Positions 167-46,057 of a stretch of DNA of 47,933 nt are shown one piece after another (the stretch's first letter is position 1; the number at the start of each line of letters is the position of its first letter). Position numbers and translations under genes: made by a program. The notes under the pieces were generated by a model. The model saw only the letters and a list, made by a program, of their open reading frames with translations. It searched no databases and was not told the DNA's origin. Source of the stretch: Desulforamulus aquiferis (lineage in GTDB: Bacteria; Bacillota; Desulfotomaculia; Desulfotomaculales; Desulfotomaculaceae); the NCBI GenBank assembly GCA_004143605.1, contig AWVY01000021.1, positions 76,040-123,972 on the forward strand. The letters run 5' to 3'.

Positions 167-595
167 TTAATCTTTAACATTATCCCAATCTGTTGACTTA
201 CAGAAGGGACATTTGGTGTGCCGTCGACAGAAATTCCCCTGCCACTTATACCCACATTCTTTACACTCAAGTTTGGATAAAACTATTCGATAGTTGCCCC
301 CCTCAACCCTTATGGCCAGACCATTTATCAGAGCTTCGGATATCTTTTTTCGTGCGGAAACAATTATCCGGTGAAAGGTTGGCCTGGATACTGCCATTCT
401 CTCCGCACAAACCTCATGATCTAAACTATCTAAATCACAAAGACGAACAGCTTCTAATTCCTCTACCGTAAGAACAACTTCAGATAGTTGACTCATGGGT
501 ATTCCTTGAGGCTTAAAATATGTCACCACAGGAAGTCTCTCTACTTGCCTATACTTGGGAGGCCTAGCCAATGTGCACACGTCCTTTTTTGACAT
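167..595 (-). CDS. DUF134 (UPF0251) HTH / zinc-ribbon protein
   Basis: A 142-residue protein of the DUF134 family, small predicted DNA-binding proteins of anaerobic bacteria and archaea. Residues about 40-85 hold the family's helix-turn-helix region (LTVEELEAVRLCDLDSLDHE, then the RPTFHRIIVSARKKI recognition part). The C-terminus has two Cys pairs (CKEC, CPFC) of a probable zinc ribbon. The start is fixed by a TTGACA/TATAAT promoter about 15 bases upstream, so the leader is only a few bases and the ribosome binding site is weak (AACGG). The box covering the start codon recurs upstream of the mrp/ORP-like operon at 13.8 kb, so this protein may regulate itself and that operon; that is inference. 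Family assignment is firm, biological role unknown. Confidence 0.9.
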   Translation of the reverse strand: MSKKDVCTLARPPKYRQVERLPVVTYFKPQGIPMSQLSEVVLTVEELEAVRLCDLDSLDHEVCAERMAVSRPTFHRIIVSARKKISEALINGLAIRVEGGNYRIVLSKLECKECGYKWQGNFCRRHTKCPFCKSTDWDNVKD

Positions 596-637
596 CCGTT
601 CATAACCATATTATACCTATCTTTGATCCTTTGTCAA
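591..637 (-). promoter_or_regulatory. SigA promoter and shared box of the DUF134 gene
   Basis: On the minus strand TTGACA (632-637) and TATAAT (610-615) are separated by 16 bases. Immediately downstream, over the predicted transcription start and the ATG (593-595), lies a box that on the plus strand reads GACATCCG, then TTCATAACCATATTATA (591-615). The same 25 bases occur with two changes at 13769-13793 before the mrp operon. A repressor bound here would cover both the -10 element and the start codon. Confidence 0.75.
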
Positions 638-701
638 TAATCACCTTAATAAATGCTTTGTATTAACTTTTAATATTTTTATAAATGATTTTAGTATGAT
701 T

Positions 702-765: not shown

Positions 766-3136
766 TTAGCATAGGGCAGCTTCGATCATTGAAAGTAATT
801 GTTCCTTTTGGAAACCATGCTGTTGGCTGGCACCATTTGGACAAACGGCTACACACATTCCACAACCGGTACACAATACTTCCCTTACACTAGCTACCCT
901 CTTAAACCTATCCAAATCCCTTGCGCCACTGGGGCAGTGCTTTTCACATAAACCACAGCCCCCGCACAATTCTTCGTCAACCGTGGCAACAATACCAAGG
1001 GATTCAACCTTCTTCCTGTCCAGGAAGTTTGCTGCCTGTATTGATGCAGCATAGCCTTGGCTTATACTTTCTTCTGTTGTTTGAGGTCCTTGGGCTGTTC
1101 CGCATAGATACAAACCATCAACTTTAAAATTTACAACATTAAATTTCTGATCAGCTGGGGCAAAGAAACCATTTTTGTCCAGAGGTATTTTAAAACATTT
1201 ACTTAGTATTTTATTGTCCTTTGCTGGCTCTACTCCAGTGGATAATACCAAGAGGTCAGCTTGCAAATTCAACATTAATTCAGGGTAAGGATTTTTTATC
1301 TGAACATTTATGTTTCCCTGGACATTAGTGACCTGGGGTTTTTTATCAAGTCCCAGCCTTATAAACCTTATTTCTTTCTGCTGTGTTCTAGTATAGTAGT
1401 TTGGGTATGAACTGCAATTAATACTATCCCGGTATAATATATATAAATTAATATCTGGATCTATTTCTTTGATTGCCAGGCATTTCTTAATGCCTCGGTA
1501 CAACAATTTTTACTACAATAGGGCCTTACCTCTTTTAAACCAACACACTGCACCATCACAACAGTTTTGACCCCGGAAAGGAATTCCTGAGAAATTCGTT
1601 GCTCCAACTCTTGCTGTGTAATTACAGCTGGGTGCTGACTATACAAATATTCTTTGGGCTTAACGCTGGATGCCCCTGTTGCAATGATTACCGTGCCGTG
1701 CTCTACATAAGTGGTACCACCATTGCTCTGTGCTATAGTAGTTTTATACCTACCTGGAAAGCCCGCGACATCTTTTATTTTACTTTTAAGAAACACTTGA
1801 ATGTTAGGAGCAGCCAAGACCTTTTCCTTTAGCTCCCCAATAAAACTATCAAGCTCATTATTTTTTTCCACTAAAACTGTTTGATAGCCCTGGTCTGCCA
1901 GTGATAGGGCACTAATCATGCCAGCCACGCCACCACCGATAATGAGACTGGCCTGAATTATATCGGCATGGGTGGTGGAAACTGGTCTAAGCAAGGGGGC
2001 CTTTGCAACAGCCATCTTAACTAAATCCTTCGTTTTCTCGGTGGCTTTCTCCGGCTTATTGCTGTGTACCCAGGAAACCTGCTCCCGAATATTAACATGT
2101 TCATAAAGATATGGGTTAAGTCCTATCTCCCTTAAACCGTCTTTTATTAATGCTTCTAAGACATTAGGTGTGCAGGAGGCAATTACCACCCTATTTAGCG
2201 TATATTTAATAATCATTTCCTTCATTTTAGCAATACTCTCGGGAGAACATAAATGAAGGTATTCACTTACATAGTCAACATTTTTTAGGTTCTTGGCATA
2301 GGATAAAATTTCAGGCATATTGACAACCCTGGCAATGTTATTGCCTCCATTACAAATGAACACACCCACCTTAGGCTTCTCCATATTAACATTACGTTCC
2401 ACCGGATATACTTTATCAATTTTTTTGTTTCGTATCGGTGCTAAAAGCTTAGCAGCTTGGGCGGCAGTGGAACTTGCATCGATGACAGTTTCAGCAACAT
2501 CCTTGGGACCAGAGAAATTACCGCAGGTAAAGATACCCGGGCGTGCTGTATGACCTGGCATGATTAACTTGTTAAGTCCATTTCGGTTACCCTTTAGCCT
2601 TATATCCAAAATTTGTCCTAGTTTGTTGGCATTTCTGCCTGTAAGTATTACTGCATCCATTTCTAACTGAAGCACACGTTCTATTATATTCTCTGGGTGG
2701 TTTTTTTCTTTACAATCCCAGCATAGTTCATTGGAACTAAGGTTATTGTCAGGCTCGGAAACTTTAGCACATGCCCCACAGCCTAATATCCGATTGTAGT
2801 CTACGTTATTAGTTCTTTGCAGGATTTTTGCTCTGAAACTACCAGGCTCTCCTTCAAGATCGATGACTTCTGCTTCAGTAAAAATGTTAATATTCCTATG
2901 ATTAAGTACACTAATTAACAATGGGGATAAAGTACACATGGCACATGGCTTGGCAGAAATGGCACAATTATTCTCCGGCAGGTGTTTATCCCTCTTCGTC
3001 ATAATTGACCCTAGATTATGCCTCTTTTCTGCTAGATACACGAGATAGCCCAATTTAGCTAAGTCAAGGGAAGCTTGCATACCTGAGATACCACCCCCAC
3101 AACCAGCACCGTACCAATGGGTTTATTAACTGTCAT
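766..3136 (-). CDS. degenerate HdrA-like iron-sulfur flavoprotein
   Basis: About 790 residues once two breaks are repaired: one G short in VVGGGISGM near 3103, and one C short near 1487. The start is the ATG at 3136, 26 bases after the stop of the upstream fusion gene, behind a GAGGGG site. HdrA is the flavin subunit of heterodisulfide reductase. Here the FAD fold (GGGISGM, GGGVAGM), the CSKNCC segment and two C-terminal 4Fe-4S motifs (CGGCGLCEKHCP, CTGCGMCVAVCP) are intact. Other HdrA signatures are changed: the usual VCNCGINIG is ICNGGNNIA, the first ferredoxin motif reads LGCGACAKVSEP and lacks Cys, and NDCAMC is expanded to NNCAISAKPCAMC. The N-terminal half is much shorter than in its 38.8-kb paralogue. 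It is probably a diverged partner of the adjacent fusion rather than a complete HdrA. Confidence 0.8.
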
Positions 3137-3162
3137 GGGTTCCCCTCCTCGCCCCTAAACAT

Positions 3163-6100
3163 TTAAAATAGTGCAGCATCAATCATGGCCAGCATTTGTT
3201 CCTTTTCAAAGCCCTTTTGCTGAGTAGCTCCATTTGGGCAAGCAACTGCACAGGCACCACAGCCCTGACAAAGAACTTCCCGCACCAAGGCCACACGTTT
3301 CTTCTCATCGATAACCCTAGCACCATAGGCACAGGCAGCTACACATATGCCACAGCCCTTGCATAATTCTGTATCAACCTGTACCGTAATACCCAGTGAC
3401 TCTAACTTACCCTTTGACAGGAGACTGACGGCCCTAATTGAGGCAGCATTGGCCTGGGCAATTGTACTTCTGATATTTTTAGGACCGTGGGCTAATCCGC
3501 ATAGGTAAAGACCGTCAGCAGCAAAGTCCACAGGTCTCAACTTCATATGAGCCTCAAGGTAAAATCCATCATTATTAATTGGCACTTTAAACATCTGACT
3601 AAGCTCTAAATTATCCTTGCGAGCTTCCATCCCATTAGCCAGGACCAACAAGTCTGCATCAATTTTGATATTCCGCTGCAGAACATGATCCATAGCAGTT
3701 ACAGTTATTTTTTCACCCTCTGACTCCACCTTCGGTTTATTGTCTAGTCCGTAGCGGATAAAGATTACCCCCTTGCGGCGGGCCTCAACATAATATTCCT
3801 CCTTAAAACCGAAGGTACGAATATCACGATATAAAATTACTACCCTGGCATCTTGGTTAAGTTCCTTAATCTTTAAAGCATTTTTTATAGATTGAGTACA
3901 GCAGACCCTACTGCAATAAGGTCTTTCCTGTTCCGGGAGCCTACACAGTTAATCATCACAATGGTATTCGCGTCACCAAGTCCCTGGTAGTACATTCTTT
4001 GCTCCAACTGCACCTGGGTGATAACGGAAGGATTTTCTCCATAAAGATATTCAGTTGGGACAACCGGATTGGCTCCCGTGGCAATGATCACGCCACCATG
4101 TTCGATTTCTGAAGTGCTTTCGTCATTTCTAATGATTTTGGTTTTATAGTTGCCAAGGTAGCCAGCCACATTTTGAACCTGGGATTTCAGCATTACCTCA
4201 ATTAATTCATTGGCTTTAACATCAGCTTTAAGACCGTTTAAAAATCTGGGTAAATCACCGCCATCATAGCTGTAACACAGCTCATTAGCCATACCTCCAA
4301 GGTCCCGGGATTTTTCTACCAATACCGAATGAAACCCCTGCTCTGCCAGGGATAAAGCTGCAGTCATGCCTGCGATTCCTCCACCAACCACAAGAACTTT
4401 AGGATTTACATCAATAAAGGTTGGCTGAACCGGCTTAAGCAGGCGAACCTTAGCCACTGCCATTCTTACTAAATCCTTGGCCTTTTCGGTGGCTTCCTTT
4501 GGAAACTCCCGATGCACCCAGGATGACTGTTCCCGAATATTGGCATGTTCATAGAGGTAGGGATTTAACCCTGCTTCTTTCATACTGCTCTGGAAAAGTG
4601 GTGCATGTGTTCTGGGTGTACAGGAAGCAACCACAACCCGATTTAATTTATGCTCCGAAATACGCTCTTTTATTTTTATAATGTTATCCTGGGAACAGGT
4701 AAATAAAAATTCTTCAGTATGAACAACCCCAGCCAGTTCCGCGGCAAAATCAGCTACCTCTGTTACATTAACCACGCTGCCAATATTAATGCCACAGTTG
4801 CAGACAAAAACTCCTACCCGTGGAAGCTCCCTGCTGACATCCCTTTCCGGTGGGTACTCTTGGACTGCGGTCATGGTCCACGTGCCGGTGCCAATAAGCG
4901 GGAGGCCATGGCAGCTGCCGCACTGGCATCAACCACTGTTTCGGGAATATCCTTTGGTTCTCCAAAGGCCCCGCTGGTAAAAACACCCTGTCTAGAGCTT
5001 TGTCCCGGACTAAAATCTAAGCTCCGGCAAAATCCATAACGGTCAAGCTCAATGCCTACTGCCCGAGCTAATTCTGCTGAGCCTTCGGGGGCGGACAGGC
5101 CAATGGACAGAACCACCATATCAAAGGTTTCGTAATGAATATTGCCCGATTCATCGGCATAACGAATGGCCAGGTCATCACTACCCTTGCTTGTAGGATC
5201 TATACCATATATCCTTGAACGAACGAACTTGATGCCATGTTCATCCTTAGCCCTATTTTGGTACCTTTCAAAGTCTTTGCCGTGGGTGCGCAGATCCATG
5301 TAGAATATTGTTGTATCCAAAGGGTGGTGACTATGTTCCTTAGCTATCATGGCTTGTTTTATTGCATACATACAGCATACCGATGAACAAAAGCCCTGGC
5401 CAATTTTTTCATTTCTTGACCCAACACATTGAATCCAGCAATCTTAGCCGGCTCTTTATGGTCAGAGGCCTGATCATATGACCTGAGAAAGGTCCACTGG
5501 CCGATAAAATCCGTTCAAACTGGATGCTAGTAACAACATTTGGATACCTACCATAACCGTACAAATATAAATCACTGGATCATAGGGTTTAAAACCAGGG
5601 TTAAGTACCAATGCCCCTACTTCATACTCCAGTTCCTGATCTCTCATCTCGTGGTTAATAGCCTTTGGTATGCAGACATCCACGCATTGAAGGCATTCTG
5701 AACATACTGCACAGTTTAGACAGCGCTCAGCCTCAGCACAGGCCTGCTCTTCTGAATAACCCAAGGCCACCTCGTTGAAACCACTGGATCTTATTTCAGG
5801 AGAGATGTATGACTGCTTAATGGCTGGTTCCTTGTTAACTTCACATTTCTTTTGACGTAGGGGGGATATTTCTTCCGGGGATATTAAGAAGGTACGACCT
5901 GCCCTAAGGTCTTCCCCTTGAATATATCGGTGTATACTTTCTGCAGCCCTTTTCCCAGCTCCTACAGCATCAATTAATAGCCTCGGGCCAGTTTGGACAT
6001 CCCCTCCTGCAAAAATCCCCGGTACACTGGTAGCTAAAGTATCCCTGTCTGCAACTAGACGATTACCCTGTTCATTGATAATAGGTTTATCACCAGCAAA

Positions 6101-7600
6101 GGATAAATCTGGCCTTTGGCCAATGGCAATGATCACACCGTCGAAACCATTCCAGTCAGTTAGCTCATCCCCACACATGGGCGAAAAGCATCCTTCATCA
6201 TCAAAAAGCCGTATTACATTGGCAGTAATAAGTCCGCTGACTTTACCATTAACCCCCCTGATTTCCTTTACACTGCCACTGTAGTGGAATTTTACGCCTT
6301 CTTCAATGGCCTCCTGTATTTCCTCAGGATCGGCAGGTAATTGTCCCTGGGCTTCCAGAGTAAGTACATGTACCTCGCACCCAGACGTCTTGATACCCTA
6401 GCAGCATCCATGGCCACATTACCACCGCCGACGACCATAACCTTACTCCCAACCTTTACATCTTCACCTAGTCCAACGCCTCGCAGCATTTCTACGGCTG
6501 TTAAGACTCCCTTTAAATCGTTGCCCGGTACATTAAGCTGCAAGCCCTCTTGTGCTCCAACTCCTAAAAATATTGCTTTATAGCCATCTGCAAATAGCTT
6601 GTCAATAGTAATATCTTTGCCTAATGCCGTATTAAGCCTGATTTCTACCCCCAGTTTTTTGATTAGTTCAATCTCCAAATCCACCCACTTTTTGGGTAAG
6701 CGATACTCTGGAATCCCAACCCGCATCATCCCACCCGTAACGGCAGAGCCTCAAAAACCGTTACTTGATAACCCTGCAGGCTTAAGAAATATGCTGCGGA
6801 TAAGCCTGCAGGCCCAGAACCGATCACAGCAACCTTTTCCTCTCTCTGAAAATCCCTTTCAGGCAGGGGTAAATTGTCTAAATCCCTATAGGCAACGTCT
6901 GCTGCAAATCTCTTTAAATTTTTAATTTGTACTGATTCATCTATGGATGCCCTGTTACAAGCCCCTTGACAAGGGTGAGCACAAATTCGGCCAAGGACCG
7001 CAGGAAATGGCATATCTTGATAAATCATTTTCCATGCATCAACATACTTGCCTGACTTAACCAACTGAATATAGCCCTGAACGTTGACCCCGGAAGGGCA
7101 GGTTGCTTTACATGGAGCCAATCCCCTTTTTTCAATGGCAAAGGCATTAGGTGTTGCCTGGGCATAAAGCTTATAGGTTGCCTTACGGCTATCTAAATTA
7201 CCATTAAAGTTGTTTGGCAATTCAACGGGACAAACCCTGGCACAGTCACCACAACCTGTACATTTTGCTAGATCTATATAACGGGCCCTTTGTTTGACTT
7301 TGACCCGAAAATTTCCTGGTTCACCAGATACATCTGTTATTTTAGCTCCAGTGACAATTTGGATATTCTTATGCCGACCTGTATCCACCAATTTTGGGGA
7401 CATGATACACATGGCACAATCATTAGTTGGAAAAGTTTTGTCCAGGCGAGCCATTGTTCCGCCAATGGCTGGCTTTTCTTCTAAAAGATATACTTTAAAG
7501 CCAGATTCAGCTAAATCTAGGGCTGATTGCATCCCAGAAATACCACCTCCGACTACCATGACTGCTCCAACCAGCTTATTAGCTCCTGTTCCTTATTCAT
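3163..7600 (-). CDS. hdrA: HdrA-GltD-like-HdrA fusion flavoprotein, copy A
   Basis: One gene of about 1,480 residues, read here in six pieces because of single-base losses (for example AA near 7580, G near 6735, C or G runs near 6375, 5540, 5420 and 3880). The start is ATG 7600 behind GGAGGG. Order of domains: HdrA N-terminal Rossmann fold (VVGGGISGM) with the NDCAMC flavin motif; a 4Fe-4S motif CTGCGDCARVCP; an inserted GltD/NfnB-like module with its Cys-rich head (APCKATCPSG, CAHPCQGACNR), FAD motif VIGSGPAGL and nucleotide motif VVGGGNVAMDAAR; a second ferredoxin stretch (CLNCAVCSECLQCVDVC); then a further complete HdrA unit (VCNCGINIG, SCTPRTHAPLF, two C-terminal 4Fe-4S motifs). It is colinear with the gene at 38.9-43.3 kb. 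The nucleotide loop reads TLEAQGQLP instead of the YRRTRGEMP of that copy. Likely an electron-bifurcating subunit accepting NAD(P)H; partners HdrB, HdrC and MvhD are absent from this locus. Confidence 0.85.
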
Positions 7601-10233: not shown

Positions 10234-10581
10234 CTAATGATTTCCACCACAATTACACTGTGTTGGATTGGTTCTCAGAGAACCTGCTGCATAGGCTTCA
10301 GCCACTTCTTCCAGTGGACCTGTGGCCCCATTGAGCACCTTAATGCCCATTTGCTGCAAAGCTTGAATCATATGCCCTCCTATGCCCCCGCAAATGATAG
10401 TATCAATATTTTCATTTTTAAGCATATGGGCCATACCGCCATGGTTATGCTGAAGTCCCTCATTTGAAATAATTTGTTTTCCTCTAACCTTGCCATTTTC
10501 TAACTCAATAAGGGCAAACTCCTGTGTAGTACCGAAATGCTCATTGACCATTCCATTTTTGGCTGGCATTGCAATTTTCAT
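10234..10581 (-). CDS. NifX/NifB-fold (ORP-like) dinitrogenase-cofactor family protein
   Basis: A 115-residue protein of the PF02579 fold (the RNase H-like domain of NifX, NafY, the NifB C-terminus and the orange protein ORP). Seen: KIAMPAKNGMVNEHFGTTQEFALIEL, the HNHGG loop, GGIGGHMIQALQQMGIKV and a Cys-rich tail (CNCGGNH). The ATG at 10581 is preferred because AAAGGAG lies nine bases upstream; it overlaps the upstream zinc-ribbon gene by 41 bases. ORP binds a Mo-Cu-S cluster in Desulfovibrio; metal binding here is inferred from the His/Cys-rich sites only. Last gene of the operon. No nitrogenase gene is nearby, so a nitrogen-fixation role is unlikely. Confidence 0.85.
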   Translation of the reverse strand: MKIAMPAKNGMVNEHFGTTQEFALIELENGKVRGKQIISNEGLQHNHGGMAHMLKNENIDTIICGGIGGHMIQALQQMGIKVLNGATGPLEEVAEAYAAGSLRTNPTQCNCGGNH

Positions 10582-10732
10582 TGTTGAAATCTCCTTTATC
10601 ATTTTTGTTAACCTGCTCACTAATCTTTTCTAAGCATCCCCCGCAGCTACACCTTGGTTGTTCTACACCTTTATTGTAAAGGCGAAGGTATTCCACAATC
10701 TTCCCACACTGGACGCATCGGAATCTTATCAT
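10541..10732 (-). CDS. small zinc-ribbon-like protein
   Basis: A 63-residue protein with a CVQCGK pair near residues 6-9 and CSCGGC near residues 28-33, giving a likely metal-binding knuckle, followed by a charged tail (ISEQVNKNDKGDFNNEN). It starts three bases after the ferredoxin-MinD gene and its end overlaps the next gene, so translation is probably coupled. Short Cys-rich proteins of this type accompany NifX-fold/MinD clusters in anaerobes. No function is assigned. Confidence 0.7.
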   Translation of the reverse strand: MIRFRCVQCGKIVEYLRLYNKGVEQPRCSCGGCLEKISEQVNKNDKGDFNNENCNASQKWNGQ

Positions 10733-10735
10733 AAT

Positions 10736-11593
10736 TTATTCTCCCAGCAATTTGTTAACCTGTTGCCAAAGGTCTCTAATTGCAGAAGTAACCTCATTTT
10801 CCCCTATATCCGTAACTGGTCTGCCCTGTAGCATGGATTGGGAGAGTGACTGGTTATACGGTATTTTACCTATTACCGGAACCTTAAGATTACGTGCGGC
10901 CTTTTCTATTTCACTACACTGTTCTTCATCTAAATCATATTTATTTATACAAACTGCCGCAGTACAGCTAAAGGTTGCCGTGACCCGGAGGATTCTTTCC
11001 ATATCATGCAGGCCAGACATAGTAGGTTCTGTAACGATGAGTGCTACATCCGTGCCCGCTAAAGAAGATATGACAGGACAGCCAATGCCAGGGGGGCCAT
11101 CACTTATAATCAATGGTATCTTTCGCTCTGAAGCAATCTCCCTGGCTTTTTTCCGCACTACATTTACCAGCAGGCCAGAATTTCCTTCAGCTATGCCAAG
11201 TTTAGCATGAACCATCGGTCCCCATTTAGTTTCTGATTTGAACCAGTTACCGGACAAGTGCTCTTTAAGTTTAACTGCTCCAGTGGGGCAGACTAGATGA
11301 CAAAGGCCGCAGCCTTCACAGGCATAAGCATTTACTTGAAATTCTTTAATGGCAGAAAATCTACATAGTTCTTGACAAAGACCACATTTTGAACAAGCAT
11401 TCAGAGATATTTCTGCCTTAATGCCCCCTATAAAGGGTGGGCTTCTTTAACCTCCGGGTTCAATATTAGGTGCAGGTTAGCGGCATCCACGTCACAATCA
11501 CAAATAACGGAACCCTTTGCCAGGGTGGCAAAGCACCCAGTAAACTGGTTTTGCCAGTTCCACCTTTACCACTCACAACTGTAAGCTCCCTCA
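10736..11593 (-). CDS. MinD-type ATPase with inserted 2x[4Fe-4S] ferredoxin domain (second copy)
   Basis: About 286 residues after repair of two T-run losses, near 11534 and 11432. Begins MRELTVVSGKGGTGKTSLL (deviant Walker A), continues CDCDVDAANLHLIL, then two ferredoxin motifs (CSKCGLCQELC, CEGCGLCHLVCP), and the ATPase resumes with IISDGPPGIGCPVISSLAGTD and VTEPTMSGLHDMERI. The ATG overlaps the upstream stop as ATGA, typical of coupled translation. In Desulfovibrio the orange-protein operons carry the same pair of ferredoxin-MinD ATPases, which associate with ORP. The likely role is cofactor or cluster delivery; the substrate is unknown. Confidence 0.88.
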
Positions 11594-12436
11594 TTTGGCC
11601 ACCTCCCTCCGCACCTGCCGGAACAACTCAGCAAATCTTTCCGTCCATGCCGAATCATGTTCCACAAGGGTTATTCCCCTTGAGTAAGAACGAGCAATCT
11701 CCATCTGTAAAGGGATCCTCAGCAATATCCTAATTCCCTTCTCCTGACAATAACGATCGATTATTTCGCTACCTGGAACATCTCTGTTAATTATTACACC
11801 GTATGGAACCTTAAGCACATTAAGCATATCTACAGCTAAAGACAAATCATTAAGTCCAAAGGGAGTGGGCTCAGTTACGAGCAGGCAGTAATCCGTTCCC
11901 TCCACAGCTGCCATTACCGGACAGGAACTGCCGGGAGGACCATCTATAATGGTTATAATTTCCTTTTCAGCAGTATTTCTTACGGCCTTTATTACCGGAG
12001 GACTAGCATGAATACCAAGGTTTAATCTTCCGGTGATAAGTTTTAATTCTCCTGATCGTCCAATATTTACCGTTCCTACTTTTCTTGGAGCAGGTACTAA
12101 AGCACCCGAAGGACAGAAATGCCAGCAAGCACTACAGCTATGACAAACGTCAGGAAAGATTACCAGAGTTTTCTTTAGAAATGCTATAGCTTTAAAGCGA
12201 CATACTTCTGCACATTTGCCACAATATTGACATTTATCATAATCTACTTGTGGAATAGGCAGACTTACATTGGTACTTTTAATAGCATCCTGTCTAATAA
12301 ACAGGTGTGCATTAGGTTCCTCCACATCGCAATCCAGCAGTTGAACAGGCTGATCATTTAATATGGCTAAGGCTAAACTGGTTGCGACCATTGTTTTACC
12401 GGTGCCGCCCTTACCACTGGCCACAGAGATGTTCAT
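11591..12436 (-). CDS. MinD-type ATPase with inserted 2x[4Fe-4S] ferredoxin domain (first copy)
   Basis: An intact 281-residue protein. Deviant Walker A SGKGGTGKTMVATSLA (residues 7-22), LLDCDVEEPNAHLF, ferredoxin motifs CQYCGKCAEVC and CHSCSACWHFCP (about residues 71-112), switch region IIDGPPGSSCPVMAAVEGTD, and VTEPTPFGLNDLSLAVDML. It pairs with the next gene, which has the same layout, so the two may form a heterodimer. The gene starts 12 bases after the NifX-fold gene and ends in an ATGA overlap. Cytoplasmic; inferred to supply energy or electrons for metal-cluster handling by the ORP-like proteins. Confidence 0.9.
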   Translation of the reverse strand: MNISVASGKGGTGKTMVATSLALAILNDQPVQLLDCDVEEPNAHLFIRQDAIKSTNVSLPIPQVDYDKCQYCGKCAEVCRFKAIAFLKKTLVIFPDVCHSCSACWHFCPSGALVPAPRKVGTVNIGRSGELKLITGRLNLGIHASPPVIKAVRNTAEKEIITIIDGPPGSSCPVMAAVEGTDYCLLVTEPTPFGLNDLSLAVDMLNVLKVPYGVIINRDVPGSEIIDRYCQEKGIRILLRIPLQMEIARSYSRGITLVEHDSAWTERFAELFRQVRREVAK

Positions 12437-12448
12437 ATAATCACCGCC

Positions 12449-12808
12449 CTATCTACCATGGGGACCTACATTTGGAGCTGATGCCTCGCTTAGGAGACCC
12501 TTTTGATAGCTTTCCACCACATCTTTAACCTTGCCAGAAACACCAATATATACCTTAATGCCCGCCGCCTCCAATCCTTTATAAGCGTTCGGACCTATAT
12601 TGCCTGTAATTACCGCCTGTACTTGTTGGTCATTCAATAAGGTAGCTGTGGCAATACCCGCCGCCCCCGGAGAAAGTCGACCACTGTTTTCTATGGCTGA
12701 ATACTGACCTGTACCAGTATCATAAAGGACAAAGTACTCACACCTTCCTAAACGGGGATTTACCCCACTATCCTGGTTTTTCCCGAAGGCAGAAATGGCT
12801 ATCATCAT
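12449..12808 (-). CDS. NifX-fold (ORP-like) protein, first copy
   Basis: A 119-residue PF02579-family protein: MIAISAFGKNQDSGVNPRLGRCEYFVLYDT at the N-terminus, a SPGAAGIATATLL loop where the other copy has HNHGG, then VITGNIGPNAYKGLEAAGIKVYIG. It lies 26 bases after mrp and 12 bases before the ATPase pair. The two NifX-fold proteins of this operon are only distantly alike, and the His-rich loop is missing here, so they probably bind different ligands or form a heterodimer. The C-terminal HGR is short and lacks Cys. Confidence 0.87.
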   Translation of the reverse strand: MMIAISAFGKNQDSGVNPRLGRCEYFVLYDTGTGQYSAIENSGRLSPGAAGIATATLLNDQQVQAVITGNIGPNAYKGLEAAGIKVYIGVSGKVKDVVESYQKGLLSEASAPNVGPHGR

Positions 12809-12834: not shown

Positions 12835-13674
12835 CTAACTTACTTGGCTCTTGACCTTCAGCAAATTAGGTATTTCCTCAAAGGCGTTAATATCTGCCTC
12901 CTCTACCCGGCCATTGTCACATAATTGTGTAAATTTAGGATCGATGGCAAGTACCTCCAAAACCGGCAGAGCATCAAAGGTATCTCCCTTTGTCAAAGCT
13001 TTGCCAAAGATTTCAAGACGGTCTCCACATTTTGGCAGGTAAAGTAGGCCATATTTTGCACATATCCAAAAGGGGAGTCTCCATAATACCTGCCATGCGC
13101 ACAGCCTTCTTGACAACCATGACAGCCAAATCCTGTGGAGATGTTACTACTACAATACCATCTACCGGAATTTGCTGCATTACAGTCAAGGGAACATCCC
13201 CTGTACCTGGCGGCATATCAAGCAGAAGATAATCCAGTTCACCCCAATTAACATCCGTCCAAAACTGCTTCACTGCACCGGCAATAATTGGGCCTCTCCA
13301 GATAACAGGTTCATCCTCACTCTCCAATAACAGGTTTAAAGACATAATTTTAATGCCCTTCTGGCTGATGGCTGGAAGGAGCAGCCCTTGATTGGGGGGA
13401 ACCCTTTTAACTCCAAACATTTTAGGTATACTTGGGCCGGTAATATCTGCATCTAAGATTCCTACCCTATAACCCAATTTTCTTAAATTTACAGCCATAA
13501 GTGAAGTTACTGAAGATTTACCCACACCACCCTTACCGCTCATCACAGCAATAACCCTGGCTATTTTACTTTGGCCACCGGGATAGAGCTTTGGTGGGGC
13601 ACTGCACTTTTCACCCCACAGGTGCCCTCTTTCATTTCCCCACAGCTTGAACACTCATTACTTTGACCACTCAT
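12835..13674 (-). CDS. mrp: Mrp/ApbC (NBP35-type) iron-sulfur carrier ATPase
   Basis: About 280 residues after repair of an A-run loss near 13574 and G and C losses near 13078 and 13052. N-terminal Cys cluster (CSSCGEMKEGTC), deviant Walker A VMSGKGGVGKSS, GILDADITGPSIPKMFG, LLLDMPPGTGDVPLT, TSPQDLAVMVVKKAVRM and, after repair, the TCPKCG motif that bridges a [4Fe-4S] cluster in the Mrp dimer. Mrp proteins carry and transfer Fe-S clusters in the cytoplasm. First gene of the six-gene ORP-like operon, about 107 bases downstream of the promoter at 13788-13814. ORP operons of Desulfovibrio also contain an Mrp homologue. Confidence 0.9.
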
Positions 13675-14087
13675 GATTTTGGCTTCCTCCCTTAAATGTT
13701 ATCTTATTCCAGGCCGAATATTATCTCTTTATTTGTACTATAATCCAGCCTTCACAATTTAAATTATGGACATCCGCTCAAAACCATATTATAGCTATTA
13801 TGAACTAATGTCAATAAAATAATGTAATATTTTTATAAATTTTATTTAGCTATTTAATTTTACACTTATTAGCTTATTACAATTTAAAAACTATATATAA
13901 ATTTAAGCACTCTATAATTTTGCTACGCAATTCCATTTTAGGTATTTTAAATAATAATTTATATATTTTATTTGACTTTGATTTTAATTTAATTCTATAC
14001 TATAAGTAGATTCCTTTACTTAACCAGTTTGTAAAAATTAAGGGCTTCTATGTTGTTTTTGGATAATAGCCACAATGGGGTGGGAAT
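13675..14087. other. AT-rich divergent intergenic region
   Basis: About 410 bases, strongly AT-rich, between mrp (minus) and the RadC-like gene (plus). Apart from the mrp promoter and box, it holds the roughly 107-base untranslated leader of mrp. From 13815 to 14060 I see no gene, repeat or clear hairpin. Confidence 0.6.
13769..13814 (-). promoter_or_regulatory. promoter of the mrp/ORP-like operon with the DUF134-type box
   Basis: Minus-strand TTGACA (13809-13814) and TATAAT (13788-13793) are separated by 15 bases (possibly 16 if one base is missing). Downstream of the -10 the plus strand reads GACATCCG, then CTCAAAACCATATTATA (13769-13793), differing at two of 25 positions from the box over the start of the DUF134 gene. 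There is no -24/-12 (sigma54) element, unlike Desulfovibrio ORP operons. Confidence 0.75.
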
Positions 14088-45779: not shown

Positions 45780-46057
45780 TTATATTTTAATGTCGAAGAT
45801 GGAGAAAAGTAGGTCGGTCCCAGCCCTCCAGGGAAAAGGAGCCTTGACTGGAAGCTCTTTTAGGGTATGGATGAGCGAAGTTCGCTCCGGAGATGCTGCG
45901 TTGAAATTCTTAGTAGGTGCAGCCGGGAACTCCCCCCGTTACAAGGAAAGGTATCGGACAGTCGAGTCCCGTACCGGTAAAGCGGCTTTAAGCAATTAGG
46001 GTGGTACCGCGAAATCATGCATTTCGTCCCTCAGGGATGAGATGCTTTTTTATTTTA
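45780..46057 (+). ncRNA. T-box riboswitch leader
   Basis: Stem I begins near GAGAAAAGTAGG; the stem II/III region carries CTTAGTAGGTGCAGCCGGGA and CCCCCCGTTACAAGG; the invariant antiterminator bulge TGGTACCGCG is at 46002-46011; and a terminator GCATTTCGTCCC / GGGATGAGATGC followed by TTTTTTATTTT is at 46019-46055. Uncharged tRNA pairing at the TGGTACC box would prevent termination. I could not identify the specifier codon with confidence. The downstream symporter is therefore probably an amino-acid transporter or linked to amino-acid supply. Confidence 0.9.

Follow-up and report, generated by a model that had tools for sequence, protein, structure and literature searches.

A double palindromic promoter element links DUF134 genes to ORP-like operons in Desulforamulus and marks a candidate DUF134 operator

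In Desulfovibrio vulgaris, the orp1/orp2 operons (DVU2103-2109) need sigma54, the enhancer-binding protein DVU2106 and IHF (PMC3897727, PMC4641369). The locus described here, from a 3.57-Mb genome of the genus Desulforamulus, resembles these systems in having an ORP-like operon of Mrp/MinD-type ATPases and NifX-like proteins, palindromic sites and a putative dedicated local regulator. It differs in that the D. vulgaris operons are activated by sigma54, DVU2106 and IHF, whereas here we found sigma70-type promoters with proximal candidate operators, and the candidate regulator is a DUF134 protein. Two further systems are relevant for comparison. Proteins of the ArsR/SmtB family bind 12-2-12 repeats, for example TGAACA-GA-TGTTCA (PMC8790569), and MrpORP domains bind Fe-S clusters (PMC6345978).

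The putative target operon lies on the minus strand of the window, the whole stretch of 47,933 nucleotides that was analysed, and runs in the order Mrp, NifX-like, MinD-like, MinD-like, NifX-like, which is the gene content of ORP-like operons. The first gene, mrp, encodes a NUBPL/ApbC-type P-loop NTPase (12838..13674; PF10609, and tblastn with the intact ortholog of the congener G007). It is followed by a NifX-like (Nitro_FeMo-Co) protein (12449..12808; PF02579), a MinD-like ATPase with 4Fe-4S domains (11591..12436; domain search), a second MinD-like ATPase that is frameshifted in the assembly (10742..11594; domain search and ortholog comparison) and a second NifX-like (Nitro_FeMo-Co) protein (10234..10620; PF02579). 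Mrp and MinD-type ATPases and NifX-like proteins are of the iron-sulfur/metal-cluster carrier kind. The window Mrp and NifX-like proteins match separately the two domains of the MrpORP Fe-S carrier family (NF041136), but here each domain is encoded by its own gene within the operon, and the scores fall short of the equivalog cut-off.

Compared with the intact G007 orthologs, mrp and the second minD of the window are split over two to four frames. HdrA-like ORFs (window about 766-7559) and cell-division-type genes outside the window also look fragmented. The fragmented ORFs are probably indel errors of the draft assembly, which is 72% complete.

The earlier note on this DNA had proposed a regulatory solution unlike the sigma54 control of Desulfovibrio, and this proposal stands. 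No sigma54 -24/-12 site (TGGCAC-N5-TTGCW) with at most two mismatches was found between 11057 and 15446, which includes the mrp promoter. Sigma54 control at this promoter was accordingly rejected; the promoter has consensus sigma70-type hexamers instead.

Architecture of the element at the two promoters

A 25-base box had been reported as shared by the DUF134 and mrp promoters. Direct comparison confirmed that the copies at 591-615 (TATAATATGGTTATGAACGGATGTC) and 13769-13793 (TATAATATGGTTTTGAGCGGATGTC), both on the minus strand, differ at only 2 of 25 positions. A third box at three or fewer mismatches was absent from the window and from 100 shuffles, and the 17-base core, GGTTNTGANCGGATGTC, occurs nowhere else in the genome at 0-1 mismatches. 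Given that the genome holds no third copy and the shuffles none at all, we rejected chance as the origin of the pair. The earlier note had also argued that the similarity runs past the -10 element and so exceeds promoter consensus. The -10 hexamer in fact lies within the box; conservation is symmetric and includes TGAACNNATGTCAA outside the hexamers, on which grounds promoter consensus alone was rejected.

The box is the right half of a larger element of about 48-60 bp with two palindromic sites of the consensus TTATGARCATATGYTCATAA: O1 covers the -35, and O2 lies around the transcription start. Its inverted partner lies in the -35 region of each promoter (TTGACATNNGTTCATAA ... TTATGAACNNATGTCAA). 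Both promoters are directed on the minus strand. At the DUF134 promoter, O2 (TTATGAACGGATGTCAAAAA, 586..605) lies around the expected transcription start, matches TTATGARCATATGYTCATAA at 15/20 positions and is kept in 8/8 congeners. O1 (TTATTGACAAAGGATCAAAG, 621..640), its inverted partner at a centre distance of 35 bp, overlaps the -35 and is the more degenerate of the two. The -35 TTGACA (632..637) is invariant in alignments of the sites, and the -10 TATAAT (610..615) follows at 16 bp; in congeners, the -10 of this promoter reads TANNAT at 17 bp. The spacer of 16 in the window compares with 15 in relatives, and the extra base may be an indel error, since the draft shows probable indel errors elsewhere.

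At the mrp promoter, comparison with the palindrome placed O2 (TTTTGAGCGGATGTCCATAA) at 13764..13783, and O1 (TTATTGACATTAGTTCATAA, 13798..13817) again overlaps the -35 TTGACA (13809..13814). The -10 region TATAAT (13788..13793) is 15 bp from the -35. An alternative -10, TAATAT, is 18 bp from the -35 at DUF134 and 17 bp at mrp. Over 41 sites, TTGACA is followed by a TATAAT-like hexamer at 15-18 bp, and the O1 and O2 centres are 33-36 bp apart. With O1 on the -35 and O2 near the transcription start, palindromic sites overlap core promoter elements, as would be expected for an autoregulatory one-component repressor.

Since the element spans the -35 and -10, it would act as DNA. An RNA leader or riboswitch was rejected, as no Rfam family matches the element; the sole Rfam match in the window is a T-box leader at 45787-46034 (RF00230, 106 bits). 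The Gram-positive LexA/DinR box is CGAAC-N4-GTTCG, and some sites share the core GAACATATGTTC. Many sites, however, read GAGC...GCTC or GACA..., and with 0 matches to CGAACNNNNGTTCG at one mismatch or fewer in the window, identity with this box was rejected.

The DUF134 gene occupies 167..571 on the minus strand and encodes 134 aa (MARPPKYRQV...) from a TTG start; homology set the start, and PF02001 (E 2e-23) and the fold support the assignment. The profile match of 83 bits against a cut-off of 27 places the protein in the family. In every ortholog, homology begins at residue 9 of the ORF, which is the TTG at 571-569 with AAGGA upstream, and the ATG at 595 was rejected as the start. The box therefore lies upstream of the DUF134 start codon, and not over it as had been claimed.

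The protein has a helix-turn-helix (helices 35-46, 51-57 and 62-82) and a C-terminal Cys-x2-Cys ... Cys-x2-Cys (Cys4) knuckle, which is almost unchanged across 32 relatives. Its likeness to sigma70 region 4 consists of weak Sigma70_r4_2 matches (E 0.003 in the window, 5e-5 in the Chloroflexota protein L284) and of Foldseek matches, among them SigR and SigmaE on -35 DNA, with high probability but non-significant E-values (>0.1). Conversely, the DUF134 profile weakly matches real sigma factors. In G000 another match to DUF134 (C62), and in G055 a weak one, were rejected as sigma-factor-like, the latter judged by eye. Unlike sigma70, DUF134 is a stand-alone protein of 134 aa with a Cys4 knuckle, without regions 2 and 3, and its presumed target is a palindrome.

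The element keeps its placement and its neighbouring genes in many genomes and several phyla

A search for the motif in relatives, suggested in the earlier note, found the element at DUF134 and ORP-like promoters across the genus, the order and Chloroflexota. The box is thus not absent from relatives, an outcome that would have refuted the note's hypothesis and that instead leaves it supported. It lies upstream of the DUF134 ortholog in 8/8 other Desulforamulus genomes; the candidate operator at the proposed regulator's own promoter is thus kept throughout the congeners. In six of them (G001, G002, G003, G004, G006 and G008), DUF134 heads the mrp-nifX-minD-minD-nifX operon, so that the two share a single element. 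The window's genome and G007 have DUF134 apart from the mrp operon, with a separate copy of the element before DUF134 and before mrp, while G005 has a full element at DUF134 and a separate mrp gene that retains the -35 half only. A shared regulon predicts that the element is kept on both parts after such a separation. G007 also has a second DUF134 paralog and a second NifX-MinD operon with its own element (L063, L135), and second DUF134 copies are found in G004 and G005.

The same arrangement bears on whether the two boxes are a relic, left when an ancestral DUF134-mrp operon split and its promoter was duplicated, without regulatory meaning. In the majority of Desulforamulus genomes a single element precedes an operon that contains both DUF134 and mrp, so both boxes would descend from one promoter. 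Yet O1 and O2 are symmetric in both copies, and the non-promoter positions are conserved between families whose proteins are about 50% identical, under differing gene orders and also in Chloroflexota, which makes a relic highly improbable.

Genome-wide searches with a sequence-only profile built from 11 genus sites gave matches at these promoters in 9/9 genus genomes and matches in 87 of 113 order genomes. Another profile drew on 34 sites from many families, which match it by construction, and hit 89 of the 113 at E <= 0.001. Strong profile matches occurred on both strands, as an inverted repeat demands. A plain search for GGTTNTGANCGGATGTC in relatives returned mostly unrelated single matches because it used only one half of the element, a problem that the profile solved. 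For the scan of the DUF134 collection a tighter alignment was used, an alignment of 16 diverse DUF134 being too divergent.

NifX, MinD/Mrp, DUF134 or DUF5320 lay within a few kb at 57 of 61 inspected site loci, and at 58 once a DUF134 gene missed by the ORF caller at L154 is included. The neighbours were NifX at 49 loci, MinD/Mrp at 45, DUF134 at 27 and DUF5320 at 24. No other regulator-like cluster was found near more than 6 of the 61 sites; DUF134 is their only recurrent regulator-like neighbour. The small family DUF5320, whose function is unknown, is itself a recurrent putative target (for example L120, L122, L125, L126, L272 and L344), and at L344, a Bacillota locus outside the order, two palindromes precede it.

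The element precedes whichever gene is first, be it DUF134, NifX, mrp, MinD, DUF5320 or a small zinc-ribbon ORF. DUF134 comes first behind it in Desulforamulus, G012 and G021; in Pelotomaculum-like families NifX is first and DUF134 last. In G055 (140 contigs, listed as 100% complete) a strong element stands before NifX-NifX-MinD-MinD and no DUF134 was detected, many DUF134 genes of the order have their own promoter without the element, and in some DUF134-bearing genomes the element was not detected anywhere in the genome.

A single palindrome in Chloroflexota and other phyla

Some DUF134 promoters of Chloroflexota have just one near-perfect palindrome, TTATGARCATATGYTCATAA, in place of the full element, which shows that the two halves of the Desulforamulus element are palindromic sites in their own right. 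This palindrome precedes DUF134 by about 20-40 bp, or else precedes NifX-MinD operons, and in many cases the lone site falls between the -10 and the start codon. A search for the exact 14-mer TGARCATATGYTCA found it once per genome in 6 of 7 Chloroflexota tried, always 20-30 bp before the DUF134 coding region; reversed TGARCATATGYTCA had 0 matches in the seven genomes. Among 400 Chloroflexota genomes, DUF134 was present in 27, TGARCATATGYTCA in 25 and both in 8, so that the 14-mer co-occurs with DUF134 (8/27, against 17/373 genomes without DUF134; Fisher p 7e-5). It stands directly before DUF134 in six of the eight co-occurring genomes and before a NifX-MinD operon in two, and in the 17 genomes without DUF134 it lies mainly in GC-rich, apparently coding context.

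Upstream regions of 17 of 30 Chloroflexota DUF134 genes match the 20-mer at 17/20 positions or better (shuffle means 9-12), and 15 of 80 named DUF134 loci have an upstream match of at least 16/20, where about 0.06 were expected. The autoregulatory position, with the palindrome directly before DUF134, thus recurs in Chloroflexota and in other MAGs. Upstream of two divergent DUF134 genes (L335 and L339), at an equal distance (-33), the palindrome takes a variant form that is TTATTGGCATATGCCAATAA-like. These two cases hint at regulator-operator co-variation and a candidate specificity switch.

Behind the palindrome, Chloroflexota also encode DUF134-NifX (Nitro_FeMo-Co) fusions (L283:1535-2299 and L284:1525-2253), which may be cluster-sensing regulators. 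In some Chloroflexota, DUF134 precedes NifX or the DUF364/DUF4213 'heavy-metal chelation' genes.

Few Bacillota (2/398 genomes) contain the exact 18-mer palindrome. One site precedes DUF5320 at L344; the other (L343, in G853) precedes an ArsR-family gene that stands beside a heavy-metal-associated protein, behind TATGAACATATGTTCATA, whose core is the same as that of the DUF134 palindrome. This raises the question of whether an ArsR/SmtB metal sensor encoded elsewhere uses the element and co-regulates DUF134 and the ORP-like operon, DUF134 having a different role. The core of the element, TGAACA-TA-TGTTCA, resembles the 12-2-12 repeats, with G at the R position in many sites. Like the ArsR/SmtB systems, the element would combine a TGAaCA-N2-TGtTCA type of core, in one or two palindromes close to the -35 or to the transcription start, with autoregulation and a metal link. 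The exact 18-bp match before an ArsR-family gene and the presence of the element without detected DUF134 in G055 would also fit such a sensor. However, DUF134 is not an ArsR protein by Pfam, the consensus TGARCATATGYTCA with its TTAT/ATAA flanks goes with DUF134 rather than with arsR genes, and many sites have G/C where the ArsR examples have A/T (TGAGCATATGCTCA). Apart from L343, no ArsR-type gene was found among the recurrent neighbours of the 61 sites or the tested flanking genes at Chloroflexota sites, and in several phyla DUF134 directly follows a site, as autoregulation would predict. We therefore consider an ArsR/SmtB sensor improbable.

DUF134 as a candidate repressor

The autoregulatory position in several phyla, the neighbour exclusivity, the HTH fold and the specificity variants make DUF134 the putative binder, for which the case is strong but indirect. 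Its identity stays below certainty because of G055, the DUF134 genomes without the element, and the ArsR/SmtB-like core with its ArsR-adjacent 18-mer. Inferring the binder, the sign of regulation, the oligomeric state and the signal from sequence, we suggest that DUF134 is quite probably an autoregulatory repressor of ORP-like operons that acts through a double operator. A DUF134 dimer would most likely bind the palindrome TTATGARCATATGYTCATAA. In Desulforamulus, O1 over the -35 would hold one dimer and O2, from the -10 to about +15, a second, so that RNA polymerase would be excluded and the DUF134 gene and the ORP-like operon both repressed. Repression by occlusion with autoregulation fits the sites that lie over the -35 and over the start region, and also the single Chloroflexota sites between the -10 and start codon. 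The Cys knuckle, the NifX fusion and the operon content suggest that the signal is metal or Fe-S/Mo cluster status, which, sensed by the knuckle or a fused NifX domain, may relieve or enforce repression.

DUF134 could instead bind the element as an activator or dual regulator, for instance as a sigma-region-4 mimic that aids polymerase, and its HTH of sigma-region-4 type and the TTGACA hexamer within O1 would suit this role. We regard this as unlikely, considering that O2 lies at or downstream of the transcription start and O1 over the -35, that the lone Chloroflexota site is often placed as is usual for a repressor, and that a promoter with a consensus -35 and a near-consensus -10 should need no help. 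A more specific form of the repressor reading is tentative, and we hold it to be doubtful rather than likely: DUF134 might be a sigma-region-4-derived repressor family that recognises a TTGACA-containing palindrome and so competes with sigma for the -35 of the ORP-like operon. Its Cys4 knuckle or fused NifX domain would then sense the supply of Fe-S or Mo-Fe-S clusters, as a cluster-status switch of anaerobes in Bacillota, Chloroflexota and other phyla.

We found no study of a DUF134/COG1342/UPF0251 regulator in the literature; subscription papers and regulon databases lay outside the scope of this search, and priority is thus uncertain. For DUF134, a widespread family of unknown function, the finding offers a defined candidate operator and a putative target operon. 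ORP-like/Mrp-NifX operons outside Desulfovibrio would gain a regulatory logic unlike the known sigma54 one. As the palindrome occurs roughly once per genome in DUF134-bearing Chloroflexota, the regulon may be predictable there by a simple pattern search.
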